A stretch of 64,000 nt of DNA from NCBI GenBank assembly GCA_003164135.1, contig PLSD01000102.1:1-64000 (forward strand). The letters run 5' to 3'. The notes beneath the pieces were generated by a model. That model did no database searches. It was not told the DNA's origin and saw nothing but the letters and a program-made list of their open reading frames with translations. Made by a program: the position numbers and the translations under genes. This DNA comes from Acetobacteraceae bacterium. GTDB lineage: Bacteria > Pseudomonadota > Alphaproteobacteria > Acetobacterales > Acetobacteraceae. How positions within the stretch are numbered: the stretch's first letter is position 1; every line of letters begins with the position of its first letter. This document shows positions 11,209-53,546 of the stretch, one piece after another.

Positions 11209-12318
11209 TTAGTACGTCACCACGCTACGGATACTCTCGCCCCGGCGCATCAACTCAAAGCCTTCGTTGATTTTCTCGAACGGCAGCACATGGGTGATAA
11301 GATCATCGATGTTGATTTTGCCGTCCATGTACCAGTCGACGATTTTTGGCACATCGGTTCGCCCGCGCGCGCCGCCGAATGCGCTGCCTTTCCAGGTGCG
11401 GCCAGTAACAAGCTGGAACGGCCGCGTGGAAATCTCCTGCCCCGCGCCGGCGACGCCGATAATGATCGAGGTGCCCCAGCCGCGATGGCAGCATTCCAGT
11501 GCTTGGCGCATGACTTTCACATTGCCGATGCACTCGAACGAATAATCCGCGCCGCCATCGGTTAAATTCACCAGATACGGCACCAGATCCTCGCCGATTT
11601 CAGCGGGATTCACGAAGTGCGTCATGCCGAATTTCTCGGCCATCGGCTTGCGGCCGTTGTTCAGGTCCACGCCGATGATTTTGTCGGCACCGGCAATGCG
11701 CGCGCCCTGAATCACATTCAGGCCGATGCCACCCAGGCCAAACACCACCACGTTATCACCCGGCTGCACCTTCGCCGTGTTGAACACCGCACCGATGCCG
11801 GTGGTGACACCGCAGCCGATGTAGCAGATTTTCTCGAACGGCGCGTCTTCCCGCACTTTCGCCAAGGCGATTTCCGGCAATACCGTGAAATTGGCGAAGG
11901 TGGAGCAGCCCATGTAGTGCATTACCGGCGCACCGTCGCAGGAAAAGCGCGAAGTGCCGTCGGGCATCACGCCCTTGCCCTGCGTGGTGCGGATGGCGGT
12001 GCATAGGTTGGTCTTGCGGGATAAGCAGGACTTACAGTTGCGGCACTCTGGCGTGTAGAGCGGAATGACGTGATCGCCCTTTTTCAAACTGGTTACGCCA
12101 GGGCCGACCTCGACCACAATACCCGCACCTTCATGCCCCAGGATGGCGGGGAAAATGCCTTCCGGGTCCGCGCCGGAGAGGGTGTAGTCATCAGTATGGC
12201 AAATGCCGGTGGCTTTCACCTCCACCATCACCTCGCCGTATTTCGGTCCCTCGATATCCACGATTTCCAGTGAAAGCGGCTGCCCCGCCGCCCGTGCCAC
12301 CGCTGCCCGTGTTTTCAT
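11209..12318 (-). CDS. frmA: S-(hydroxymethyl)glutathione dehydrogenase / class III alcohol dehydrogenase
   Basis: A 369-residue zinc-dependent medium-chain dehydrogenase that oxidises the glutathione adduct of formaldehyde to S-formylglutathione with NAD+. Catalytic zinc ligands are Cys40 (GICHTDD) and His62 (GHEGAGIV); structural zinc is held by cysteines 92, 95, 98 and 106. The Rossmann motif is GLGGIGLNV. The segment CTAIRTTQGKGVMPDGTSRF is typical of class III enzymes. The start overlaps the serB stop by four bases, so serB and frmA are cotranscribed. It could remove formaldehyde made by oxidative demethylation elsewhere in the cell. No S-formylglutathione hydrolase gene is adjacent. Confidence 0.95.
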   Translation of the reverse strand: MKTRAAVARAAGQPLSLEIVDIEGPKYGEVMVEVKATGICHTDDYTLSGADPEGIFPAILGHEGAGIVVEVGPGVTSLKKGDHVIPLYTPECRNCKSCLSRKTNLCTAIRTTQGKGVMPDGTSRFSCDGAPVMHYMGCSTFANFTVLPEIALAKVREDAPFEKICYIGCGVTTGIGAVFNTAKVQPGDNVVVFGLGGIGLNVIQGARIAGADKIIGVDLNNGRKPMAEKFGMTHFVNPAEIGEDLVPYLVNLTDGGADYSFECIGNVKVMRQALECCHRGWGTSIIIGVAGAGQEISTRPFQLVTGRTWKGSAFGGARGRTDVPKIVDWYMDGKINIDDLITHVLPFEKINEGFELMRRGESIRSVVTY

Positions 12319-40045: not shown

Positions 40046-40951
40046 CTAGGCTTCGAGCTTACCCTTCGCCTGCAGGCGCAGCTCATGCAAAAACAATTTG
40101 ATCAACGGCAGGTCCTTGTCGCTGCGCCGGTGCGCGGCAAAATGTTGCGAGAGAAACTGGTACGTCTGCGGCCGCAGCGCGCGCATCAGTCCCAGTTCCG
40201 CATAGCCGTCGCCCATATGCCGCGGCAGGAAGCCAATAAGTTTGCCCGATAGGATCAGCATCGCCTGCGCTTCCATGTGGATGACGCTAGCACTCGCGCG
40301 CGGATGGTTGGCCCGGTACAAATCCTCCAGCTGCCGGTATCCGCGCACGGAAAACGGCGACGTCTCGATATCCGCGTTCGTGATTTTTTCCTTCTCGAAC
40401 AGCACATGCTGCTGGCCGCAATACAACGCATGCGCCTCCTGATGCAGCGGCACATACACAACCCCAGGCCCATGCTTGGCAAACGGGCCAATCACCACGT
40501 CGCGGCTACCCTCGGCAACCCATTGCTCCAGCTCGTGCGGCGTGCCCAGGCGTAAATCCACATACACATCCGGCGCCGCCGCAATCGTGCGCTGCAGCGG
40601 TCCTTGCAAGGCTAGCTGCGGGTTAGAAATAATGCCGTCGACAATGCCGATGCTCAGCCGGCCCACCAGCCGGTCGTTCGATCGGCCAACGCGCTTCTGA
40701 AACTTATCGATATCGGCAAACAAATCGTGTGCCGCCCGCAGCGTCGCCTCGCCAAAAGGCGTGAGGCGAAAGCCGCGCCGGCCACGCAAACACAATGCAC
40801 CGCCGAGCGAGCGTTCCAGCGAGGCGATGTGCGTGCTCAGGGTCGACTGCGAAAGATTGAGCGCAATCTGCGCGGCCGAAAAACTGCCAGCCTCAGCCAG
40901 CGCCACAAACACCCGCAGCAGTCGCAAATCAATATTGTCCAGCCGGCGCAT
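40046..40951 (-). CDS. LysR-family transcriptional regulator
   Basis: A 301-residue LysR protein. The winged helix-turn-helix occupies residues 1-62 (LRLLRVFVALAEAGSFSAAQIALNLSQSTLSTHIASLE, of which AAQIALNLSQSTLSTHIASL is the recognition part). The co-inducer-binding domain follows from about residue 90. It is divergent from the ABC importer/guanidino catabolic operon with only 49 bases between starts, and an inverted repeat lies in that gap, so it very likely controls this operon. The inducer is unknown; a guanidino compound is an inference from the operon content. Confidence 0.92.
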   Translation of the reverse strand: MRRLDNIDLRLLRVFVALAEAGSFSAAQIALNLSQSTLSTHIASLERSLGGALCLRGRRGFRLTPFGEATLRAAHDLFADIDKFQKRVGRSNDRLVGRLSIGIVDGIISNPQLALQGPLQRTIAAAPDVYVDLRLGTPHELEQWVAEGSRDVVIGPFAKHGPGVVYVPLHQEAHALYCGQQHVLFEKEKITNADIETSPFSVRGYRQLEDLYRANHPRASASVIHMEAQAMLILSGKLIGFLPRHMGDGYAELGLMRALRPQTYQFLSQHFAAHRRSDKDLPLIKLFLHELRLQAKGKLEA

Positions 40952-40960
40952 ACTCCGGTG

Positions 40961-40984
40961 TTACATCAAAATCCTTCAATGTAA
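40961..40984. promoter_or_regulatory. candidate LysR operator
   Basis: TTACAT (40961-40966) and ATGTAA (40979-40984) form an inverted repeat separated by 12 bases, in the 49-base gap between the LysR start and the divergent operon. A position and symmetry of this kind are expected for a LysR binding site that controls both directions. Confidence 0.55.
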
Positions 40985-41000
40985 AACCTTAAAAATAAGG

Positions 41001-41837
41001 ATGGATTTCCATGTTAAATTGCCCCAGCATCACCCCATGCCCGATATTTCCACCCTCACCGGATTATGGACGCGCTCACTGAAGGCCTGGCCGGACGGAC
41101 GGCGCGACACCACGACGAACGTCACCTGGCTGCAGGGCGTGAGCACCTTTGCCGACCTTCGCCAGCCGCCGCAAAACGCGGGCCAGTTCGGCCATGTCAC
41201 CTGCCTGCACGACCTCACCATGGTCGATTGTGAAAAACTTGCGGCGCAGCAGGCCTTCGCGGGTACTTTCCAGGCACGCGACGGCAACTATGAATGGGTC
41301 CGCAGCATCGACTTCCAGCCACCCCGGGCCACGCCCGACATTGGCCGCCTGTACTGGCAGGACGGCATCCTGGTCGAGGAAGGCCTGCAAGGCGAGTACA
41401 TCGAACACTGGCACCGTGATCCGCTGCTGCCCGCCCAGCCATGCGCCGCCTTCACGCTGCGCGACAAGGAGGATGGCCGGTGGGGCTGCCTACTACGCAC
41501 CGGCGGTATGTTCATGTACGCGCGCGGCCGGCTGGGCAGCCCCGCCGGCGCCACGCTGGCACAGGCCGTTGCTGCCGCGGCCAGCCTGCCCGCCGCGCAG
41601 GCGTTGCTGGATTTCGAAATATCTTTTGGCCTGATCGGCGATGGCGGCTGGCTGATTACGCGCTCCACCCTGCCGTTCCGGGAAAATACGTTCTTGCGCC
41701 ATCAATTGTCCGCCGGCGAGGGCCTGCATGTCGCCGACCTCACCCCCGCCGGCGCGCCGCAGACCCGCATTTGGGAGACGATCGGCCGCGAAGGTGATAC
41801 ATCTATACTTCTCAATGGAAACTATGAAAGTTTTTGA
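41001..41837 (+). CDS. uncharacterised protein, first gene of the guanidino operon
   Basis: A soluble protein of up to 278 residues that I do not recognise. The sequence is rich in aromatic residues and shows two similar beta-rich halves: GLWTRSLKAWPDGRRDTTTN with VTWLQG in the first, and FEISFGLIGDGGWLITRSTLPFRE in the second. The tandem barrel-like look (GLW, GxYEW, Y/W-rich strands) is consistent with a lipocalin-like binding fold, but this is only an impression. There is no signal peptide or membrane segment. The start is ATG 41001 (AAGG immediately before) or ATG 41037 (MPDISTLTG), where homologous-looking sequence begins. Its position suggests a role in the operon pathway, perhaps ligand binding. 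Confidence 0.6.
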   Translation: MDFHVKLPQHHPMPDISTLTGLWTRSLKAWPDGRRDTTTNVTWLQGVSTFADLRQPPQNAGQFGHVTCLHDLTMVDCEKLAAQQAFAGTFQARDGNYEWVRSIDFQPPRATPDIGRLYWQDGILVEEGLQGEYIEHWHRDPLLPAQPCAAFTLRDKEDGRWGCLLRTGGMFMYARGRLGSPAGATLAQAVAAAASLPAAQALLDFEISFGLIGDGGWLITRSTLPFRENTFLRHQLSAGEGLHVADLTPAGAPQTRIWETIGREGDTSILLNGNYESF

Positions 41838-41895
41838 TTGTTTTGAATACAACCAGGACACACACTGTGCTTCCACCCCGGATAAGGACCAGCTT

Positions 41896-42903
41896 ATGAA
41901 ACATTTTCGCTCTATCCTCTCACTCGGCGTCGCCACATCGTTCCTCGTCGCCGCCAATGCCGCCAAGGCGGACGATACAATTCGCATCCTGTGCCCCACA
42001 TGGTCCGGCTACGCGCCTATTTTCGTCGCCAATGACCTTGGTTATTTCAAATCCATGGGCCTCTCCGTCAACATCAAATTCGACGACGAGCGCGCCGATG
42101 TGATGGCCGCGATGGCCCGCGGCGACATCGAAATGGATTTGCGCACCGTCGGCGAATACCAGGGCCGCCCGCGCGATGAAACCACACCGGGCATCATCAT
42201 CGGCACCATCGACGAATCCCTCGGCGGCGACGGCGTTATCGCCGACGGTTCGATCAAGTCGATGGCCGACCTCAAAGGTAAAATCGTTGCGTCGGAGCTA
42301 AACATCCCCGGCCGCCTGCTGCTTCAGCTCGAGCTGCACAAATCGGGCATGACGCTGAAAGACGTGCAGCTGAAGGAAATCGCCACCGCCGACACGGTCT
42401 CCGTGTTCGCCGATTCCTCGGTCTCCGCCGTGGTCAGCTACGAGCCTTACCTCTCACAGGCCCTGAAGGTGGATGCCGCACGCAAGCCGACCGAGATCGT
42501 CTCCTCCGCGCAATACCCCGGCTATATCGTGGACGTCATCATCGTCCGCGCCGACGACCTCAAGAAAAACCCGCAAAAATACCGCAACTTCCTCATCGGC
42601 ATTTACAAAGCGGTGGACTATTACAACAAGGACCCCGCCGATTTCATCAAGCTCGCGGCGCCGCATTATGACCTTTCGCCCGCTGACTTCAAAGCCAGCA
42701 TCGACGGCAGCCTCGTCTACACCAGCCTGGCCGACACCCAAAGCCAGATCGGCACCACGGCCAAACCCGGCACGCTGTACGGCGTCTTCGGCACGCTCAT
42801 GGGTCTGAACCTGGAAAACGGCGCTGCCAACCACAAGCTTGATGCGGCGAAATCCATCGATCCCAGCGTGATTTCGACCATTTCAGCGTCCGACCTTAAG
42901 TAA
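41896..42903 (+). CDS. ABC importer substrate-binding protein (NitT/TauT, NMT1/THI5-like)
   Basis: A 335-residue periplasmic binding protein with a signal peptide of about 26 residues (ending ANAAKA). The mature part starts DDTIRILCPTWSGYAPIFVANDLGYFKSMGL-like, with WSGYAPIFVANDLGYF as the SsuA/NMT1 signature. The family delivers sulfonates, nitrate, taurine, pyrimidine precursors and other small organics to the permease. The ATG at 41896 has AAGGACC upstream. It begins the importer genes, followed closely by permease and ATPase. The substrate is unknown; the downstream enzymes suggest a guanidino compound. Confidence 0.9.
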   Translation: MKHFRSILSLGVATSFLVAANAAKADDTIRILCPTWSGYAPIFVANDLGYFKSMGLSVNIKFDDERADVMAAMARGDIEMDLRTVGEYQGRPRDETTPGIIIGTIDESLGGDGVIADGSIKSMADLKGKIVASELNIPGRLLLQLELHKSGMTLKDVQLKEIATADTVSVFADSSVSAVVSYEPYLSQALKVDAARKPTEIVSSAQYPGYIVDVIIVRADDLKKNPQKYRNFLIGIYKAVDYYNKDPADFIKLAAPHYDLSPADFKASIDGSLVYTSLADTQSQIGTTAKPGTLYGVFGTLMGLNLENGAANHKLDAAKSIDPSVISTISASDLK

Positions 42904-42917
42904 GCAGGAGCCAGACC

Positions 42918-43727
42918 ATGCCGGCGCAGCCAAACGGCAAACCGCCATTGGCCTGGATGTTCGTCTTTCGCGGCGCGTTACCGCGCGGCGTGAGGTTCGC
43001 AGCCGGGGCCGGCACCGCCTTGCTGGTGCTGGCCCTCTGGTCCATGGCCGCACCTCTTGGGTGGATTTCTCCCATCTTCCTGCCATCGCCTTTGGGCGTC
43101 CTCACCGCCTTGTGGACGATGGTCACACAAAACAACCTCCTCACCAATGCCGGCATTTCCATAGCCCGCGTCTGGGTGGCCTTTCTGCTCTCCGCCATTA
43201 TGGCCATCCCCATCGGCATATTGATGAGCAGCTACCGGATTTTCGGCTCCGCGCTGGAGCCTTTGATCGACTTCATCCGCTACCTGCCGGTCCCGGCATT
43301 GGTGCCGCTCAGCATCATCTGGCTTGGCATCGGCGAGGAAACCAAAATTTTCCTGCTCTGGCTTGGCACATTCTTCCAGCTCGTGCTGCTCGTGGCCGAG
43401 GACATGAAGCGCGTGCCGCAGGAATATTTCGAAATCGCCTACACGCTGGGCGCCAAGCCGCGCGCCGCCCTCACCAGCGTCGCCTTGCGCGCCATGCTGC
43501 CCTCACTGGTCGACAATCTGCGCATCACGCTTGGCTGGTGCTGGACATATCTCATCATCGCGGAAATCGTCGCCGCCGATAACGGGCTCGGTTTCGTGAT
43601 CTGGACCGCGCGCCGCTATATGCAGACCGACCAAGTCATGGCCGGCGTGTTCGTCATCGGTTTCATCGGCCTGGCGACCGATCAGGCCTTGCGTCTCCTG
43701 CACCGCCGTTTGTTCCGGTACCTGTAA
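42918..43727 (+). CDS. ABC importer permease (SsuC/TauC-like)
   Basis: A 269-residue membrane protein with about six transmembrane helices. The binding-protein-dependent permease loop is present as EYFEIAYTLGAKPRAALTSVALRAMLPSL (key EAA-type residues EIAYTLGA). Residues around YLPVPALVPLSIIWLGIGEETK are characteristic of the NitT/TauT class. It lies 14 bases after the binding-protein gene and two bases before the ATPase. Confidence 0.92.
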   Translation: MPAQPNGKPPLAWMFVFRGALPRGVRFAAGAGTALLVLALWSMAAPLGWISPIFLPSPLGVLTALWTMVTQNNLLTNAGISIARVWVAFLLSAIMAIPIGILMSSYRIFGSALEPLIDFIRYLPVPALVPLSIIWLGIGEETKIFLLWLGTFFQLVLLVAEDMKRVPQEYFEIAYTLGAKPRAALTSVALRAMLPSLVDNLRITLGWCWTYLIIAEIVAADNGLGFVIWTARRYMQTDQVMAGVFVIGFIGLATDQALRLLHRRLFRYL

Positions 43728-43729
43728 AC

Positions 43730-44512
43730 ATGACCGCTCCCGTCCCTTATCTGCAGTTCGATGCCGTGACCAAGCAGTTTTCCGGCTTGCACGTCGTGGC
43801 ATCCCCCTTCAACCTCGTCGTGCCCCGCCGGCAGTTCGTCGCGTTCCTCGGCCCCTCGGGCTGCGGCAAAACCACGCTCATGCGCATGGTCGGCGGGCTG
43901 GACACACCGTCCACCGGCGGCATCCGCCTGGAAGGCGCTCCCGTCGGCGGGCCGGACCGGCGCCGCGGCATGGTGTTCCAATCCTACTCATCATTCCCCT
44001 GGCTCACGGTTGAACAAAACATCATGTTCGGCATGAAATACCGGCGGGACATGCTGGCCGCCGAAAAGCACGAACGCGCCATGCATTACCTCAAACTTGT
44101 CGGGCTGCAGGACTTTGGCGCCAGCTATCCCAACCGCATTTCCGGCGGCATGCGCCAGCGCGTCGCCATTGCCCGCACGCTGGCCGCCGGGTCGGAGATT
44201 TTATTGATGGACGAACCCTTCGGCGCGCTCGACGCACAATTGCGCGAGGAGTTGCAAGTGGAACTGCGCCGCATCCAGGCCGAGGATGCAAAGACCATCA
44301 TCTTCGTCACGCATGATGTCGAGGAAGCGGTATTTCTGGCTGACCGCGTCATCGTTTTTTCTCCCCGGCCCACGGTCATTCGCGCGGATATCGACATAAC
44401 CGCGACACTTGGAAAATCCCGCGACCTCGCCATGCGCGACTCCACGGAATTTTTTCGCCTCCGCACGGAAATCCTGCACATGCTGCGCGACGCGCACCGG
44501 GCCGCATCATGA
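43730..44512 (+). CDS. ABC importer ATP-binding protein (SsuB/TauB-like)
   Basis: A 260-residue ATPase with Walker A GPSGCGKTT, Q-loop FQSYSSFPWLTV, signature RISGGMRQRVAIART, Walker B ILLMDEPFGALDAQ and switch histidine VTHDVEEAVFLADRV. These are standard for NitT/TauT-class importers. It completes the three-gene importer and overlaps the next gene by four bases, tying the importer to the catabolic enzymes. Confidence 0.94.
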   Translation: MTAPVPYLQFDAVTKQFSGLHVVASPFNLVVPRRQFVAFLGPSGCGKTTLMRMVGGLDTPSTGGIRLEGAPVGGPDRRRGMVFQSYSSFPWLTVEQNIMFGMKYRRDMLAAEKHERAMHYLKLVGLQDFGASYPNRISGGMRQRVAIARTLAAGSEILLMDEPFGALDAQLREELQVELRRIQAEDAKTIIFVTHDVEEAVFLADRVIVFSPRPTVIRADIDITATLGKSRDLAMRDSTEFFRLRTEILHMLRDAHRAAS

Positions 44513-45258
44513 ATTTTTTCGGCCAGACAGTCGTCATTACAGGCGCCAGCCGTGGCATCGGGCGCGGCATCGCCGAGGGCTTCGCCGCCGCCGGTGCCAC
44601 GCTGCACCTGCTGGCGGATGACCCGCAGGTTGTGGAGGTGGCGCAAATTCTAGGCGCCACCGGCCATGTTGTGGACATCACAAACAGCGGCGCGGTAACT
44701 GAATTCTTTAAAACCGTGCCGCATGTCGATGTGCTCATCAATAACGCCGGGCTGGAACGCTTGACCCCGCTTGAGGATTCCAGCCCGCTGGCGGAAGCCA
44801 TCTTCCGCCGTATCATCGAGATAAATGTCACCGGCACCTACCTGATAACCCGCACCGCCTTGCCGAAAATGCAGGCAGGGGGCCGCATTATCAATACCAG
44901 CTCGGTCTGGGGCCGGGTCGGCGAGCCGCTGTTCAGCGCCTATGTCGCCTCCAAGCACGCCATTATCGGGCTCACAAAAACCTGGGCGAAGGAGCTCGGG
45001 CCGCGCGGCATCAACGTGAATGCCGTAGCCCCGGGCTGGGTAAAAACAGAAGCCTCACTGCTCTCGCTCTCGCTCATGGCGGCGCGGCGAAGCATGCCGG
45101 AGAGTGAACTGATGGACGAGATTCTAACCGGACAGGCGCTGCCGGGTTTGATGGAGCCCGCCGACATGGCCGGCGTGTATATGCTGCTGGCGTCGCCCTA
45201 TGCGGCCAACATCACCGGCCAGACCCTGGGCGCGGATCGTGGTGAGGTGCCGTGGTGA
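44509..45258 (+). CDS. short-chain dehydrogenase/reductase (SDR) 1
   Basis: A 249-residue SDR with the cofactor motif [18 protein letters not shown] (INNAGLERL) and the catalytic Ser...Tyr-x3-Lys in [21 protein letters not shown]. The substrate is unknown. It overlaps the ATPase gene upstream (ATGA) and the second SDR downstream, so it belongs to the operon. It might oxidise or reduce an alcohol or carbonyl intermediate of the pathway. Confidence 0.9.
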
Positions 45259-45947
45259 GCCAGCGCGTTATCATCACCGGTGCCGCCAGCGGCATCGGCT
45301 TGGCCACCGCCCGCGCCTTTGCCGCCGCCGGTGCACAGGTCGTCGGTATCGACATCTCCCCTGCCCCGGACGGCATTTTTTGCATCAAGGCCGACCTTGC
45401 CGACCCCGCGGCAATCGAGCAGGCGGTGACCGCGGCCGCCATGCGGCTCGGCGGCGTGGATTGCCTGGTCAACAGTGCCGGGGTTGAATACGATGCGGCC
45501 CTGGGCGCGCTTGACATCGCCGCGCTGGACAAAATGTTCGCCATCAACCTGCGCGGCCCGATGCTGGTAACGCAGGCGGCGTTGCCGCATTTCGCCGATG
45601 GCGCGCGCATTATCAACATCGCCTCCGAGCTCGGTTATCTCGGCCGTGCCGGCGCCTCGGGTTACTGCGCCACCAAAGGCGCCATTCTTAGCCTCACCCG
45701 CTCCTGGGCGCGCGAACTAGGACCGCGCATCCAGGTCAACGCCGTAGCGCCCGGTCCCATCGACACACCTTTGCTCAATTTTACCAACATGAGCGAGAGC
45801 CTGCAAAAAACCGAAAGCGGCAATCCGCTGGGGCGCATTGGCCGGCCCGAGGAAGTGGCGGCGGTCATTTTGTTTTTAGCCGGGCCGGGGGCGAGCTTCG
45901 TCACCGGCCAATGTTTCAGCGTCGATGGCGGCGCGGCAATGCACTGA
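45252..45947 (+). CDS. short-chain dehydrogenase/reductase (SDR) 2
   Basis: A 231-residue SDR with [27 protein letters not shown] and the catalytic Tyr-x3-Lys in [11 protein letters not shown]. The adenine-side motif reads [12 protein letters not shown], with an Asp after the second strand that favours NAD(H). It starts at GTG 45252 (or GTG 45255), overlapping the stop of SDR 1. The two SDRs are clearly different proteins rather than a recent duplication. Substrate unknown. Confidence 0.9.
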
Positions 45948-45956
45948 GGATTACAC

Positions 45957-46730
45957 ATGGTTGATAGCGTATTCATGGCGGAACTATCCTGGCCCGAGTG
46001 GCAGCAGAGAGTCGCGGACAGCGCGATCATCTTTCTGCCCCTCGGCGCCACCGAGCAGCACGGGCCGCACCTGCCGCTCAATGTCGATGTCATCCTGCCC
46101 ACCGCGGTGTGCGAACGCGTCGCGCGCGCCACCGGCGGCATCGTGGCGCCCACCATTCAGTACGGCTACAAATCCATGCCGCGCTCCGGCGGCGGCCAAA
46201 GTTTCCCCGGCACCACCAGCCTCGATGCGAATACGCTCAGCCTCGCGCTGCGCGATATCATCCGCGATATGGCCACCCATGGCGCGCGGCGATTCGTGCT
46301 CATCAACGGTCATTTCGAGAATAGCTGGCCGGCGGTGGAGGGGCTGGACCTCGCGCTGCGCGAACTGCGCCGCGACGGTATTACCGGTGTCACCGCCATG
46401 CGCCTGGAGTACTGGGATTTCGTGCGCCCCGCGACGCTGGATAGAATTTTCCCCGACGGGTTTCCCGGCACGGAACTTGAACACGCGAGCCTCATTGAGA
46501 CCTCGTTGATGCTGTTGCTGCGTCCGGACCTCGTCGACTTGTCAAAAGTGCCCCAGGAAGGCCGGGCAAGTTTCCCTACCTATGATATTCACCCGGCGCC
46601 GCCCGGCTATCTGCGTGCCTCCGGCGTGCTGGCGGATGCGCGCGGCTCGCGCGCCGAGATCGGGCAATGGCTGCTGGATGACCATGTGGAGCTCATCACC
46701 GCCGCGGTGAAAAAGGAATTCGGCCTTTGA
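45957..46730 (+). CDS. creatininase (creatinine amidohydrolase)
   Basis: A 257-residue member of the creatininase family that looks like the true enzyme. Metal ligands are the Glu, His and Asp in LGATEQHGPHLPLNVDV and the His and Glu in INGHFENSW. From memory, stretches such as VDVILPTAVCERVA, QYGYKSMPRSGGG, FPGTTSLDANTL, YWDFVRP and LMLLLRPDLVDL align closely with Pseudomonas putida creatininase, which interconverts creatinine and creatine. Other family branches (mycofactocin MftE, riboflavin FAPy deformylase) are less similar in these segments. The stop overlaps the TTG start of the Rieske gene (TTGA). Its place in the operon with two ureohydrolases supports a guanidino substrate. Confidence 0.85.
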   Translation: MVDSVFMAELSWPEWQQRVADSAIIFLPLGATEQHGPHLPLNVDVILPTAVCERVARATGGIVAPTIQYGYKSMPRSGGGQSFPGTTSLDANTLSLALRDIIRDMATHGARRFVLINGHFENSWPAVEGLDLALRELRRDGITGVTAMRLEYWDFVRPATLDRIFPDGFPGTELEHASLIETSLMLLLRPDLVDLSKVPQEGRASFPTYDIHPAPPGYLRASGVLADARGSRAEIGQWLLDDHVELITAAVKKEFGL

Positions 46731-47908
46731 ATATCCTGGATATTTCCAAGGACATCATCGCGACGGCGCAACGCCCTCTGGATCAGGCGCAAACCCTGCC
46801 GCCCCAGGCCTATACCGATGAAGCCTGGTTCACGCATGAGGCCGAGCATATATTGCGCGCCGGCTGGCTCTGCGCCGGGCATGTCTCGCAACTTAAGCAG
46901 CCAGGCGCCACGCTTCCACTCGACCTGTTGGGCGAACCGGTGATGCTGGTGCGCGGCAATGACGATGTCATCCGCGTGCTATCTCGCGTCTGCCCGCACC
47001 GCGCGTCGGACCTGCTGCTGGGCGGCGAAGCCACCGGCTGCCATGTCGCAGGCAGCGTGCTCACCTGCCCGTATCACCACTGGACCTTCGCGCTCGACGG
47101 CAAGCTCATGGGCGCACCACACATGCAAGGTGCTGTGGACTTCAACAAGGCCGAATGGAAACTGAACAATATCCGTAGCGCCGTGTGGGAAGGCTTCATC
47201 TTCGTCAACCTGAATGACGAGGCGCCGCCGCTGGAAACCTATTTCGCGGATTTCACCGCCATCGCCGCGCCGTGGCAACTGGCTGAGATGGAACTCGTCA
47301 TTTCCATGGACTGGGACTGTGCATTCAACTGGAAAGTGATGGTGGAAAACTGGATCGAAAGCTACCACCACATCGGCCCGCACTCCAAAACGCTCAACCC
47401 CTATATGCCGGCACAGGACACCTGGACCGAGCCGCCGAACGGGGCCTTTGTATACGCGCATCTGCCGATGACCGGACGGGACGCAGCACCTGTGCGCGAG
47501 GCGATTGCCAGCGGCGCCCCTGGCACCGGCTTCCTGCCAATTCCCGGCGTGCCGGTGGAGCGCCAGGGCGAGTGGAACCTATTCGTTGGCTTTCCTTGTT
47601 TCATGCTGCTGCTCGCACGCGACCGCGCCATCTGGTACCGCCTGCAACCCATTTCAGCGGAACGCTGCCGGCTCACCACCACCACGCTGGTCTCGCGCGC
47701 AAGCCTGCAAGCCCCCGGCTATGCGCAAACCCTGGAAGCGGAAACCAAAATGTTGTTCGATTTCCACGTGGAAGACATGCAGGTGAACGAAGCTGTGCAG
47801 CGCGGGTTGCGTTCCCGCCACGCCGTGCGCGGGCGGCTTAGCCAACTGGAAGAGCCCGTCTGGCAATTCCATCGTTTACTAGCGGCACAAATGGCAGACT
47901 TCCGATGA
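46727..47908 (+). CDS. Rieske-type ring-hydroxylating/N-demethylating oxygenase, alpha subunit
   Basis: A 393-residue oxygenase. The Rieske [2Fe-2S] ligands are Cys89 and His91 (VCPHRAS) and Cys114 and His117 (LTCPYHHW); the 22-residue spacing between the pairs is slightly long. The mononuclear iron site is in ENWIESYHHIGPHSKT (His214, His219). The sequence style (LDLLGEPVMLVRG, GWLCAGHVSQL) resembles glycine-betaine and related N-demethylases more than naphthalene-type dioxygenases. Such enzymes release formaldehyde when they remove N-methyl groups. The start is TTG 46727. No reductase or ferredoxin gene is in the operon, so electrons must come from a protein encoded elsewhere. Confidence 0.88.
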   Translation: MNILDISKDIIATAQRPLDQAQTLPPQAYTDEAWFTHEAEHILRAGWLCAGHVSQLKQPGATLPLDLLGEPVMLVRGNDDVIRVLSRVCPHRASDLLLGGEATGCHVAGSVLTCPYHHWTFALDGKLMGAPHMQGAVDFNKAEWKLNNIRSAVWEGFIFVNLNDEAPPLETYFADFTAIAAPWQLAEMELVISMDWDCAFNWKVMVENWIESYHHIGPHSKTLNPYMPAQDTWTEPPNGAFVYAHLPMTGRDAAPVREAIASGAPGTGFLPIPGVPVERQGEWNLFVGFPCFMLLLARDRAIWYRLQPISAERCRLTTTTLVSRASLQAPGYAQTLEAETKMLFDFHVEDMQVNEAVQRGLRSRHAVRGRLSQLEEPVWQFHRLLAAQMADFR

Positions 47909-48846
47909 ACGGCCTGTTCGAGCCCACCGACGCCGCACTGGTACCGCGCTTCGCCGGCGTAGCCAGCTTCATGCGCCTGCCGGTTGTCACGGACCCCGCA
48001 CTGGTCGACGTCGCTTTGGTCGGCGTACCGTTCGACGGCGGCACCACCAACCGCCCCGGCACGCGCCACGGGCCGCGCGAAATCCGCAACCAGTCCAGCC
48101 TGATGCGCCGCATCAACGCCAACGGCGTGGCTCCTTATGACACGCTGCGGGTGGCCGACCTTGGCGATTCTCCAGTCAACCCGATCGACCTGCTCGACTC
48201 CCTTGCAAAAATCGAAGGTTTTTTTACCGGCATCGCCGCAGCCGGCGCCATCCCCATCACGGCGGGTGGCGACCATCTCATCACACTGCCCATCCTGCGC
48301 GCGCTCGCCGCCAAAGCGCCGGTGGGGCTCATCCATTTCGACGCGCATTCCGACACCAACGACAAATATTTTGGCGACAACCCCTACACCCACGGCTCCC
48401 CCTTTCGCCGCGCCGTGGAGGAAGGCCTGCTCGACCCCAAGCGCTGCGTGCAGATCGGCATTCGCGGCACCTATTATCATCCCACGGATTTTGACTTCGC
48501 CCGCGCCGCGGGATTTCGCATCATCACCATGGACGAGGTAATGGACCGCGGCATCACCGAAGTCATGGTGGAAACACGCCTAATCATCGGCGCTGATCCT
48601 GTCTATGTCTCTTTTGACATCGACAGTCTCGACCCCGCCATCGCGGTGGGCACGGGCACGCCGGAAATCGGCGGCTTCACCGCGCGGGAGGCGCAACGCA
48701 TGCTGCGCAGTCTCACAGGTCTGAACATCATCGGCGCCGACGTGGTGGAAGTCTCCCCCCCGTTCGACCCCTCAGGCCTCACCGCGCTGACAGGTGCGAC
48801 CATGATGTTCGAACTGCTTTGCGCCATCGCCGGAGGCAAAAACTGA
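47905..48846 (+). CDS. ureohydrolase (agmatinase/guanidino-acid hydrolase family) 1
   Basis: A 313-residue manganese or nickel ureohydrolase. Metal ligands lie in TAGGDHLIT, IHFDAHSDTND and VSFDIDSLDPAIAVGTGTPE. The N-terminal loop VGVPFDGGTTNRPGTRHGP and the HGSPF motif fit agmatinase, guanidinobutyrase and guanidinopropionase relatives. These enzymes split a guanidino group to give urea and an amine. The substrate cannot be read from sequence; a short guanidino acid is likely from context. The start overlaps the Rieske stop (ATGA), and the stop overlaps the next ureohydrolase start (TGATG). Confidence 0.9.
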   Translation: MNGLFEPTDAALVPRFAGVASFMRLPVVTDPALVDVALVGVPFDGGTTNRPGTRHGPREIRNQSSLMRRINANGVAPYDTLRVADLGDSPVNPIDLLDSLAKIEGFFTGIAAAGAIPITAGGDHLITLPILRALAAKAPVGLIHFDAHSDTNDKYFGDNPYTHGSPFRRAVEEGLLDPKRCVQIGIRGTYYHPTDFDFARAAGFRIITMDEVMDRGITEVMVETRLIIGADPVYVSFDIDSLDPAIAVGTGTPEIGGFTAREAQRMLRSLTGLNIIGADVVEVSPPFDPSGLTALTGATMMFELLCAIAGGKN

Positions 48847-49790
48847 TGGCGCATGGCTACGAATCCGGCCGGCTGGATCTGCCCTTCGTTGGTATCTGCA
48901 GCTTCGGCAAATATCCCATCCAGCTCGACTGGGATAACATCCAGGCCGACGCCGCCATTCTCGGCGCCCCGTTTGATGGCGGCACGCAATGGCGTCCCGG
49001 CGCCCGTTTTGGTCCCCGCGCCATCCGCGAGGCCTCTACCTTATTTGCCTTCGGCCATGCCGGCGCCTACGACCATGAGGACGATACCACCTATCTCGGT
49101 AACTGCCGCATCACCGATATCGGCGACGCCGATATTATTCATACCGACACCGAACAAAGCCACGCCAATATCGAACTGGGCGTGCGCAAAATTCTCGCCG
49201 CCGGGGCCATCCCCGTGGTGCTGGGCGGCGACCATTCCATTAACATCCCCTGCATCCGCGCGTTCGACCGCCAACCCCCGGTGCATCTGGTGCAGATCGA
49301 CGCGCATCTGGATTTCGTCGACGAGCGCCACGGCGTGCGCCACGGCCACGGCAACCCCATGCGCCGTGCCGCCGAGCAACCCTACGTCACCGGCCTCACC
49401 CAGCTTGGCATCCGCAATGTTTCTTCAACAGCACGCGACGGTTATGAGGATGCGCGGGCGCGCGGCTCGGACATTTTATCCGTACGCCAGGTCCGCCAGC
49501 TTGGCACGCAAGCCGTGCTGGAACGTATTCCCGCAGGTGTGCGCTATTATCTTTCCATTGACATCGACGCCTTCGACCCCTCGATCGCACCGGGCACCGG
49601 CACACCCAGCCATGGCGGCTTCACTTATTACGAGGTTCTGGAACTGCTCGCCGGCCTGGCCAAACGCGGTGCCATCGTTGGCATCGACCTCGTCGAGACC
49701 GCGCCCAGTTACGACCCCTCCGGCATCACCGCCATCCTGGCCGCGCAACTGCTGCTCAATCTCCTGGGACGGGTCCTGGCGCTGAAATAG
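48846..49790 (+). CDS. ureohydrolase (agmatinase/guanidino-acid hydrolase family) 2
   Basis: A 314-residue ureohydrolase with metal motifs VLGGDHSIN, VQIDAHLDFVD and LSIDIDAFDPSIAPGTGTPSHGG. It is clearly diverged from its neighbour in the N-terminal region and the specificity loops, so the pair is either two enzymes with different guanidino substrates or subunits of one hetero-oligomer. It is the last gene of the operon; a strong hairpin terminator follows before the convergent acyl-CoA dehydrogenase gene. No Ni-insertion genes (HypAB) are adjacent. Confidence 0.9.
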   Translation: MAHGYESGRLDLPFVGICSFGKYPIQLDWDNIQADAAILGAPFDGGTQWRPGARFGPRAIREASTLFAFGHAGAYDHEDDTTYLGNCRITDIGDADIIHTDTEQSHANIELGVRKILAAGAIPVVLGGDHSINIPCIRAFDRQPPVHLVQIDAHLDFVDERHGVRHGHGNPMRRAAEQPYVTGLTQLGIRNVSSTARDGYEDARARGSDILSVRQVRQLGTQAVLERIPAGVRYYLSIDIDAFDPSIAPGTGTPSHGGFTYYEVLELLAGLAKRGAIVGIDLVETAPSYDPSGITAILAAQLLLNLLGRVLALK

Positions 49791-51209: not shown

Positions 51210-53546
51210 ATGCCCGAAGACCTCCGCCTTGTAGCACTTGAGACCAGCCCGCCCGCCTTTACCGAGGGCACCGCGGAAATGATGGCATGGGATATTTTCG
51301 GCGTGGCGGGCACCGCCCAGCTGCTTTACGGCGAACGCGACCAGAATTTCCGCATCCGGCCCGAGGGCAGCGACGGGATCATCTTCAAAATTCTTGGCCC
51401 GGCCGAGGACCCTGCCGCCGTCGACTTCCAGACCGCGGCCCTTGAACATATCGCCGCCATGGACCCCACCCTGCCGGTGCCGCGCGTGCGCAGAACCCTC
51501 GCAGGCGAGGCCTACACGCGAGTGAACGACAACGCGGGTGTTCCTCACATCGTGCGTGCGCTGGACTTCCAACCGGGGCGGATCATGGAAGGCGTGGAAC
51601 CCAGCCGGGCGTTGTTGCGTAACGCAGGCGCCACCCTGGCGCGGCTAGACCGTGCGCTCGCGAACTTCTTCCACCCGGCAGCGGGCCAGCGCATCGTATG
51701 GGACGCCCGCCGCGCGGTTGAGCTGCGCCCATCCGCCGACCTCATCAGCGATTCCGCCCACCGCGCTTTGATCGGCGGCGTGCTCGACCGCTTCATCGCC
51801 TTCATGCCCGAGCTGGCGCGCCTGCGCGCCCAGGTCATCCATAACGACTGCCACCCCGGCAACATGCTGGTTGACCCTGAGCAGCGCGCGATCACCGGCC
51901 TGCTCGACTTCGGCGACATGATCCATGGCCCGCTGGTGCTCAACATTGCCGTTACCGCCGCCGAAACCACCGGCAAAAACCTCTCCCCCATCGACTACGC
52001 CGCCGAGGTAATTGCCGGCTACAATGCGGTTCTGCCGCTGGAGGACGCCGAATTCCCCGCCCTGTTCGAGGCGATCATCGCGCGCCATGCCATGAGCGCG
52101 ACCATCCATGCCTGGCGGCGGCAGCATGACCCGGAAGGTGCCGCAAAGCTCGGCAGCCTCAGCGCCGCCAGCGCTCCCGCGATCGAGGCATTCCTCAACG
52201 CCGGGCGTGACGCCGTAGTCGCCAAATTCCGCGCCGCGGCGGCCAGCCCGGAAACAGACCGCGCCACCGGCACACTCTCAGCCCAGCTACAAACCCGCCG
52301 GCGGCATTTCCTAGGGCGCGGCCTGGAACTCTCCTACCGCGAGCCGCTGCATCTGGTGCGGGGCGAAGGCGTGTATCTGTATGAACCGAATGGCGGGCGC
52401 TATCTCGACGCCTATAACAACGTGCCTTCGGTCGGCCACGGCAATCCGCGTGTAGCTGCCGCCATTGGCCGGCAGATGGCAACGCTCTGCACCAACACCC
52501 GCTACCTCCATCAGGCGGTCGTCGACTATGCCGAGCGCCTGACCGCCACCATGCCCGCCGGGCTGGAGACCTGCCTGTTCGTCAACAGCGGCAGCGAGGC
52601 GAACGACGCCGCCTGGCGCATCGCCAAAATTGTCACCGGCAAACGCGGCGCTCTGGTGATGGCCAACGCGTATCATGGTGTGACCGATGCGGTAGCGGCA
52701 CTTTCCCCCTACTGCTGGCCATACGCCCGGCCGTTGCAGCCGCATGTCCAAGCGCTGGAAGCACCCGACACCTATCGCGGACGCTTCCGTGCCGATGACC
52801 CGGAGGCGGCGGCACATTACGCCGCCGATGCGCACCGGGCGATCTCGGCGCTACAAGCAAGCGGCCACGGCGTCGCCGCCCTCATCATCGACTCCGCCTT
52901 CGTCTCGAACGGCATCCTGGATGTGCCCCCCGGCTATTTCGCGGCCATTGCCGCCAAGGTCCGCGCTGCTGGCGGCTTGGTTATTGGCGACGAGGTCCAG
53001 TCCGGCTTTGGGCGTCTGGGGGATATGTTCTGGGGTTTTGCCCGCCACGGCGTGGTCCCGGACCTGGTCACGCTCGGCAAGCCGATGGCGAACGGCCATC
53101 CCGCTGGCGCGGTGGTCACGCGGCGCGACCTGCTGGAGGCTTTTACCGACCAGATCGACTTCTTCTCCACGTTTGGCGGCAACCCGGTTTCCGCCGCCGC
53201 CGCGCTGGCCACGCTCGATATTCTGCAAAGCGAAAACCTGCAGGAAAATGCCCGCGCCACCGGCTCCTTGTTGCGCGAGGGCATCAGCACCCTGGCCACG
53301 CGGCATCCGGCCATCGGCGACGTGCGGGGCAGCGGCCTCATGGTTGGCGTCGACATTGTTAGCGACCGAAGCCGTCGTACCCCCGACGCTGACGCCGCCA
53401 AGCAGATCGCGAATGCGATGCGCCACCTGGGGGTGCTAATCGGCACCGAGGGTCCGGACGGCAACGTCCTGAAAATCCGCCCGCCGCTGCCCTTCGGCCC
53501 GGAACATGCCACGATTTTGCTCGATGCTCTGGATCGTTCACTTTAG
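51210..53546 (+). CDS. fused aminoglycoside-phosphotransferase-like kinase and class III aminotransferase/phospho-lyase
   Basis: A 778-residue fusion. Residues 1-340 form a choline/APH-type kinase with the catalytic loop VIHNDCHPGN (Asp213) and the magnesium motif LLDFGD. Residues about 355-778 form a class III PLP protein: VGHGNPRVAAAIGRQ, FVNSGSEANDAAWR, VIGDEVQSGFGRLG and the PLP lysine in LVTLGKPMANGHP (about Lys624). The order kinase then class III enzyme mirrors hydroxylysine kinase plus phospho-hydroxylysine phospho-lyase, or ethanolamine-phosphate phospho-lyase, known as separate proteins in animals. An amino alcohol is likely phosphorylated and then split to an aldehyde, ammonia and phosphate. 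Exact substrate unknown. It is monocistronic and divergent from the acyl-CoA dehydrogenase. Confidence 0.88.
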   Translation: MPEDLRLVALETSPPAFTEGTAEMMAWDIFGVAGTAQLLYGERDQNFRIRPEGSDGIIFKILGPAEDPAAVDFQTAALEHIAAMDPTLPVPRVRRTLAGEAYTRVNDNAGVPHIVRALDFQPGRIMEGVEPSRALLRNAGATLARLDRALANFFHPAAGQRIVWDARRAVELRPSADLISDSAHRALIGGVLDRFIAFMPELARLRAQVIHNDCHPGNMLVDPEQRAITGLLDFGDMIHGPLVLNIAVTAAETTGKNLSPIDYAAEVIAGYNAVLPLEDAEFPALFEAIIARHAMSATIHAWRRQHDPEGAAKLGSLSAASAPAIEAFLNAGRDAVVAKFRAAAASPETDRATGTLSAQLQTRRRHFLGRGLELSYREPLHLVRGEGVYLYEPNGGRYLDAYNNVPSVGHGNPRVAAAIGRQMATLCTNTRYLHQAVVDYAERLTATMPAGLETCLFVNSGSEANDAAWRIAKIVTGKRGALVMANAYHGVTDAVAALSPYCWPYARPLQPHVQALEAPDTYRGRFRADDPEAAAHYAADAHRAISALQASGHGVAALIIDSAFVSNGILDVPPGYFAAIAAKVRAAGGLVIGDEVQSGFGRLGDMFWGFARHGVVPDLVTLGKPMANGHPAGAVVTRRDLLEAFTDQIDFFSTFGGNPVSAAAALATLDILQSENLQENARATGSLLREGISTLATRHPAIGDVRGSGLMVGVDIVSDRSRRTPDADAAKQIANAMRHLGVLIGTEGPDGNVLKIRPPLPFGPEHATILLDALDRSL

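Follow-up and report, generated by a model that had tools for sequence, protein, structure and literature searches.

An Acidocella operon that may oxidise and split a guanidino compound encodes a creatininase paralogue without Trp174

Introduction

Creatininases open a cyclic acylguanidine, and in the enzyme of Pseudomonas putida (structure 1j2t; model TIGR04448) Trp174 is a residue that we take to matter. The Rieske oxygenases CntA (carnitine monooxygenase) and GbcA (glycine betaine monooxygenase) act on methylated amines, CntA-type enzymes hydroxylating beside nitrogen. In two ureohydrolases the recognition residue is Tyr157 (3-guanidinopropionase, GPase) and Met161 (guanidinobutyrase, GBase), as reported in PMC10833137. 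Relatives of all these enzymes are encoded together at positions 40046-49790 of the window, as we call the whole stretch analysed here, the first 64,000 nucleotides of contig PLSD01000102.1 (assembly GCA_003164135.1). The operon's genome (G000) is an Acidocella; it is listed as 5.43% contaminated, and the operon core is nevertheless found in G015, G006 and G030 as well.

Behind a divergent gene for a LysR-type regulator lie ten tightly packed plus-strand genes (41037-49790). They encode an unknown protein (Unk, the first gene), a NitT/TauT-type importer, two short-chain dehydrogenases (SDR1 and SDR2), a creatininase-like hydrolase (Crn), a Rieske oxygenase and two ureohydrolases (UH1 and UH2). 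The names, order and strands given to these genes in a first-pass annotation of the window were all borne out by gene calls and by Pfam and NCBIfam families. A literature search of titles and abstracts, with most subscription journals outside it, found no description of this gene set or of such a creatininase paralogue, which is not proof of being unpublished.

A recurring four-gene core

The recurring core of the operon is SDR1-SDR2-Crn-UH1; the Rieske oxygenase and UH2 are variable. We compared 37 further creatininase loci, taken from both genomes and plasmids (L-numbers are fetched loci, G-numbers genomes), scoring each for operon homologues at ≥50% on the same stretch. A locus was called a cassette if it carried an SDR1 or SDR2 homologue at this threshold, so that the presence of an SDR is true by definition and residue 174 of Crn, treated below, is a separate observation. 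The cassette group comprises 20 of the 37 loci, with SDR2 on 17, SDR1 on 13, UH1 on 11 and all three on 8; the remaining 17 loci have no operon homologue over the threshold. The three accompany Crn in the genus itself (L108, L037 and L110), in other families (L079 in f51, L132 in f171, L133 and L135 in f23) and on a plasmid of Rhizobium sp. CIAT894 (L129), where the set is split and divergent. Since relatives show the same gene order, the operon is no chance arrangement. A search for conservation of the gene set had been proposed in the first-pass annotation; it shows the core recurring, with the Rieske oxygenase and UH2 present at some loci and missing at others.

The tightest association is that of SDR2 with Crn. 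SDR2 copies (54-77% identity) lie within 151 bases of the Crn gene on 15 of the 17 cassette loci that have them, and on four loci (L109, L111, L112 and L113) SDR2 adjoins Crn though SDR1, UH1 and Rieske homologues at ≥50% are not on the stretch, which fits SDR2 as maker of the Crn substrate. SDR1 copies are 59-75% identical. Scoring of the 7 best candidates per genome across 385 genomes of the class placed SDR1 (≥62%) at a minimum of 4 sites, spread over 3 genomes and each close to a Crn gene; the class- and phylum-wide protein searches scored the best 5-7 candidates per genome, and their counts are possibly too low. Within the genus, 14 of 38 Acidocella genomes (own included) have creatininase homologues at E≤1e-50.

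Two loci whose Crn is truncated at a contig end, L040 and one in G014 (48%), stand outside the 37. Of 18 plasmid records, 14 were examined (H4, H7, H10 and H15 left out). Gene calling missed UH2 of L108, Crn of L116 and L117, and UH2 of L091 and L092; absences were therefore taken from homologue scoring or genome searches where possible.

Some cassette loci carry further genes. The own genome has a second, paralogous cassette (L044, G000:C24:1-7600) with copies of UH1 (64%), SDR1 (61%) and the creatininase (63%), along with further SDRs and an amino-acid-permease-like gene; L114 and L116 are similar. Genes of HpcH/HpaI type and class V aminotransferase type accompany the split cassette of the Rhizobium plasmid (L129, 4965-17555).

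The creatininase paralogue

Crn resembles the P. putida creatininase over its whole length. Aligned to 1j2t, it keeps Glu34, His36, Asp45, His120, Glu122, Trp154, Glu177 and His178, and so both the metal ligands and the Glu177/His178 pair. It differs in having Thr at position 174, in its separate clade and in its partners, SDRs and a ureohydrolase instead of an M24 creatinase. Residue 174 is Thr, Ile or Tyr in all 21 cassette proteins (window included), with the metal ligands kept in every one, so the hydrolase is expected to be active, though with an altered pocket. Among the 17 non-cassette loci, it is Trp in 15 and Leu in two (L088 and L089). Nine further plasmid loci all have Trp174, eight of them with an M24 gene (62-66%), and none has SDR1, SDR2, UH1, UH2 or Rieske homologues at E≤1e-20. 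In total, Trp174 is present in 24/26 non-cassette loci and in 19/19 loci with an M24 creatinase-like gene (≥62%) on the stretch, a split that rests on related sequences, the non-Trp rows being largely one clade and so not independent events. No M24 creatinase was found on any of the 18 cassette stretches tested (all 20 but L109 and L113). The tree groups 20 cassette rows behind a branch supported at 99/98, opposite the P. putida enzyme; the row of L082 (Tyr174) is long and takes an intermediate place, and the whole cassette group as one change has support of 89/67. The simplest reading is that the window Crn probably has a substrate other than creatinine.

Further variation is found at these two tryptophan positions. 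The solved chain 3a6e is unlike 1j2t at position 174, the L115 alignment has Gly instead of Trp at position 154, and L088 and L089 represent a third type of the creatininase family, with Leu174 and Pro154, beside other transporter genes.

The genus also has the classical enzyme. Five other Acidocella genomes (G017, G025, G034, G009 and G021; loci L117-L121) carry a creatininase with Trp174, 45-46% identical to the window Crn, and each of the five stretches also has an M24 gene (88-97% identity to the one in L118). Both kinds of creatininase occur in one genome in G009, G025, G034 and G017. The window shares with these clusters a creatininase-family gene but has neither Trp174 nor the M24 gene. 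The absence of creatinase had been pointed out in the first-pass annotation, and this holds: the ten genes include none, and a search of the G000 assembly with the L118 M24 protein, without a built-in positive control, gave no match. Creatinine breakdown is an unlikely role for the operon. In the classical cluster L118, a purine/cytosine-type permease and sarcosine-oxidase-type proteins were recognized by Pfam; L119 and L120 look alike on reading their sequence, and reading of the L121 stretch revealed no sarcosine oxidase gene.

The two ureohydrolases

The closest solved relative of UH1 is the 3-guanidinopropionase GpuA of Pseudomonas aeruginosa (3nip, 463 bits; 320 bits to guanidinobutyrase 3nio). 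UH1 keeps the equivalent of Tyr157, its DKYFG aligning to DRYFG, and differs from GpuA by sitting behind SDRs and a creatininase paralogue. Among 12 cassette UH1 proteins (window included) the recognition residue is Tyr in ten and Phe in two; a more distant UH1 copy of the own genome (L045) has Met, as in GbuA. At ≥63%, UH1 occurs in the genus in 7 places (window included), all of them in cassettes. Together with the NitT-type importer, this likeness to 3-guanidinopropionase makes plausible what the first-pass annotation had proposed in general terms, a LysR-linked system for uptake and breakdown of a guanidino compound.

UH2 is closest to an agmatinase (1wog, 209 bits) and is widespread, with matches at E≤1e-60 in at least 41 of the 385 class genomes (own included) and at least 28 places outside the window at ≥70%. 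Seven of nine fetched UH2-centred loci were examined. For six of them, the neighbours displayed include no Crn, SDR or UH1 homologue; in G101 (L097) UH2 stands downstream of a UH1 copy, with a LysR gene after it. For urea use, G000 holds a urea-carboxylase-type protein and a urease alpha subunit. On L079, allophanate hydrolase- and UAAP-like open reading frames (ORFs) were also seen by sequence reading.

Two other roles for the pair were set aside. One is a UH1/UH2 heteromer of the metformin-hydrolase type, which seems less likely as both proteins keep the metal motifs and have GpuA and an agmatinase as best solved relatives. The other is an imidazolone/formimino route like that of histidine breakdown: UH1 scores 114.3 bits with the hutG model, too few for its cut-off, whereas its match to GpuA has 463 bits.

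A proposed pathway

In the scheme that we propose, the operon would serve to take up a small guanidino compound and to degrade it oxidatively in the sequence 'oxidise, close, open, split'. The reactions and the order in which they occur, the substrate and the direction in which the SDRs work are all inferred, and we put the probability of the scheme at roughly 40%. SDR1 would convert a guanidino alcohol to an aldehyde, which would close by itself on the guanidino group as a cyclic hemiaminal. Oxidation of the hemiaminal by SDR2 would give a cyclic acylguanidine, which is a lactam resembling creatinine; Crn would open this ring to a guanidino acid; and UH1 would split the acid into urea and an amino acid, with UH2 as a second ureohydrolase. 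The assignment of SDR2 and Crn to consecutive steps is suggested because they are the most constant pair, creatininase opens a cyclic acylguanidine and the best model for SDR2 is glucose 1-dehydrogenase. Some glucose-1-dehydrogenase-like SDRs oxidise cyclic hemiacetals, and the pathway would follow the same logic as a sugar 1-dehydrogenase with a lactonase acting after it. The Rieske oxygenase may provide an alternative entry, hydroxylating a carbon adjacent to the nitrogen of the guanidinium or amine group and so feeding SDR2.

Two substrates are candidates. 3-Guanidinopropionate has dihydroisocytosine as its lactam, and guanidinoacetate has glycocyamidine; 3-guanidinopropanol might thus be degraded via dihydroisocytosine to beta-alanine and urea, or guanidinoethanol via glycocyamidine to glycine and urea. 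What is probably new is the combination of a creatininase paralogue with two SDRs and an enzyme resembling guanidinopropionase. More broadly, we tentatively suggest an undescribed pathway that would oxidise guanidino alcohols or cyclic guanidines to creatinine-like lactams, open these by means of a neofunctionalised creatininase and end in the release of urea. A CntA-type Rieske enzyme would be another way in, and the 'creatininase' clade would then be misnamed.

Several observations weigh against the proposed scheme. Five Acidocella genomes (G034, G037, G012, G001 and G003; completeness 100%, 99%, 97%, 85% and 86%) have a window-clade Crn and SDR2 and zero arginase-family proteins, the same search being positive in 14 of 38 Acidocella genomes; the SDR2-Crn pair, with or without the Rieske enzyme, can thus serve a route that does not end in a ureohydrolase. 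L044, L114 and L116 have no SDR2 homologue at ≥50% (37-38% on L044 and L114), and SDR1-SDR2 homologues occur without Crn in G130 (51 and 53%) and G066 (46 and 45%), on contigs of only 3,995 and 4,603 bases. The UH1 proteins of L079 and L132 are those with Phe at position 157. On L115 (5465-15269), Crn and an SDR2 homologue stand amid genes for a dihydropyrimidinase (hydantoinase-type), a TRZ/ATZ-like amidohydrolase and an EutA/racemase-like protein, hinting at cyclic amides in general as substrates. Finally, none of the ten operon genes, to which the search was confined, encodes a Rieske reductase.

The Rieske oxygenase and alternative readings

The Rieske oxygenase is closest to CntA among solved relatives and to GbcA among NCBIfam models, but it lies far under the GbcA cut-off (139.7 bits against 670) and its operon is without a reductase gene. 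The CxH/CxxH motifs are present, and the Glu of ESYHHIGPH occupies the place of that in the CntA motif ECYH, presumably the bridging position. Homologues at ≥50% were found in 5 of 99 other genomes searched (G034, G015, G003, G001 and G005). They occur on three of the 20 cassette loci (L037, L039 and L080) and on L040, and at none of these four does the gene lie between Crn and UH1 as it does here. In L037 it is divergent and on the far side; in L039, L040 and L080, from another family, it accompanies SDR2 and Crn (beside Crn or as Unk-SDR2-Crn), without SDR1 and UH1; in G034 and G003 the Rieske homologue and Crn are on different contigs. Two of its surroundings are given here for the record. 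In Acidocella aromatica (G034, L036 9311-17198), Rieske-Unk lies beside a trimethylamine monooxygenase (NF058570, over cut-off), an HODM-like N-demethylase gene and a GcvT-like gene. Near Rieske-Unk-SDR2-Crn of L039 (10870-18790) are a fatty-acid-desaturase-type gene, an NtaA/DmoA-type flavin mononucleotide (FMN) monooxygenase, a NitT-like importer and an allophanate hydrolase.

This distribution bears on what the oxygenase is for. The operon could be a mosaic, in which SDR1-SDR2-Crn-UH1, perhaps with UH2, handles one guanidino compound and Rieske and Unk handle another methylated amine, the two being merely co-regulated. L108 and L110 have no Rieske homologue at ≥50%, in L037 the gene stands apart and divergent, its nearest relatives are methylated-amine enzymes, and the A. 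aromatica pair has trimethylamine monooxygenase and N-demethylase genes beside it. Its place next to SDR2 and Crn in L039, L040 and, outside the family, L080 instead favours a shared pathway, and we regard the mosaic as possible, if on the unlikely side. A shared pathway could also be an oxidative creatinine route, built on creatol and creatone chemistry: the Rieske enzyme would hydroxylate C5 (creatol), SDR2 would form the dione (creatone A) and Crn would open it to methylguanidine and oxalate-level products. This would account jointly for the oxygenase, SDR2 and the creatininase paralogue, and for the genomes without a ureohydrolase, but the scarcity of Rieske homologues on cassette loci, the lack of any role for SDR1 and UH1 and the fact that no genetic link to creatinine was seen make it improbable.

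The first-pass annotation had favoured a different use of the oxygenase: creatininase opens creatinine, the Rieske enzyme N-demethylates creatine and a ureohydrolase splits the resulting guanidinoacetate. Crn does score above the creatininase cut-off and the Rieske enzyme resembles the N-dealkylating CntA/GbcA kind. Against this stand the clade and residue 174 of Crn and the classical creatininase with its M24 gene in the same genus. The Rieske gene is not in the conserved set, and L037, L108 and L110 lack it between Crn and UH1. Nor could the route be general, since G034, G001 and G003 combine a Rieske homologue (≥50%) with the Crn paralogue but have no arginase-family protein, and it gives the SDRs, the most constant partners, no job. 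In a distant comparison, a human GbuA-like ureohydrolase is reported to be inactive on guanidinoacetate and creatine (PMC9772407). The frmA gene invoked to remove the formaldehyde is unlinked (ORF 11209-12318, minus strand, ~28 kb off), its name coming from sequence reading and not from a family search. We therefore consider this route very improbable. The slimmest chance is given to a guanidino-cyclitol route, in which the SDRs would make a cyclic beta-diketone, Crn would cleave a C-C bond as does IolN (3-dehydro-scyllo-inosose hydrolase) and the ureohydrolases would strip guanidino groups. Two SDRs, two ureohydrolases, the HpcH/HpaI-type protein of L129 and a weak match of Crn to the IolN model (NF041098, 71.9 bits) would suit it; the same Crn, however, is far nearer creatininase (342.6 bits) than IolN, whose cut-off is 245, and the importer is not of sugar type by Pfam.

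Operon layout and the first protein

The genes are listed in Table 1. Four-base overlaps, which the first-pass annotation had taken to prevail, do exist but at only three of nine junctions (ATPase/SDR1, creatininase/Rieske and Rieske/UH1), so that their extent was overstated; other junctions are overlaps of 7 bases (4 if SDR2 starts at 45255) and 1 base, or gaps of 58, 14, 2 and 9 bases. Downstream of the operon, past an oppositely oriented gene, the window encodes a fused phosphotransferase (APH) and class III aminotransferase of 778 residues (51210-53546).

Table 1. Genes of the operon and its divergent regulator, with positions in the window.
Gene product	Position	Strand	Family or model
LysR-type regulator, divergent	40046..40951	-	PF00126 + PF03466; homologues of 58-82% identity in L079, L132, L037, L110, L108
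Unk, unknown protein, predicted HRI1-like double lipocalin-type barrel	41037..41837	+	no family at E≤0.001 (Pfam/NCBIfam)
Periplasmic binding protein, NMT1/THI5 (NitT/TauT) type	41896..42903	+	PF09084; SsuA_fam below cut-off
ATP-binding cassette (ABC) permease	42918..43727	+	PF00528; SaoP/TauC models below cut-off
ABC ATPase	43730..44512	+	PF00005
SDR1, YxxxK motif (YVASK)	44509..45258	+	PF13561/PF00106
SDR2, YxxxK motif (YCATK)	45252..45947	+	best NCBIfam model glucose 1-dehydrogenase, below cut-off
Crn, creatininase-like hydrolase	45957..46730	+	TIGR04448, 342.6 bits (cut-off 235)
Rieske oxygenase, CntA/GbcA-like	46727..47908	+	Rieske + Ring_hydroxyl_A domains
UH1, ureohydrolase near 3-guanidinopropionase GpuA	47905..48846	+	arginase family; metal motifs intact
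UH2, agmatinase-like ureohydrolase	48846..49790	+	arginase family; metal motifs intact

The predicted fold of Unk is the double barrel of yeast HRI1 (YLR301w, 3rby), to which it is 14% identical; the fold says nothing on function. The HRI1 Pfam model does not match the window Unk and weakly matches 3 of 15 homologues (best E 0.0052). Unk homologues (L048-L062) lie behind LysR genes near NitT-like importers, in Parvibaculum sedimenti (L054) also with a urea carboxylase.

Implications

If the proposed scheme is true, bacterial HRI1-like proteins would be tied to nitrogen-compound operons, a clade annotatable as creatininase, the window Crn passing the TIGR04448 cut-off, would have another substrate, and position 174 would offer a one-residue annotation marker parting the two creatininase kinds. 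The four-enzyme set is ready for in vitro work, and an uncharacterised pathway for guanidino compounds would span several alphaproteobacterial families.

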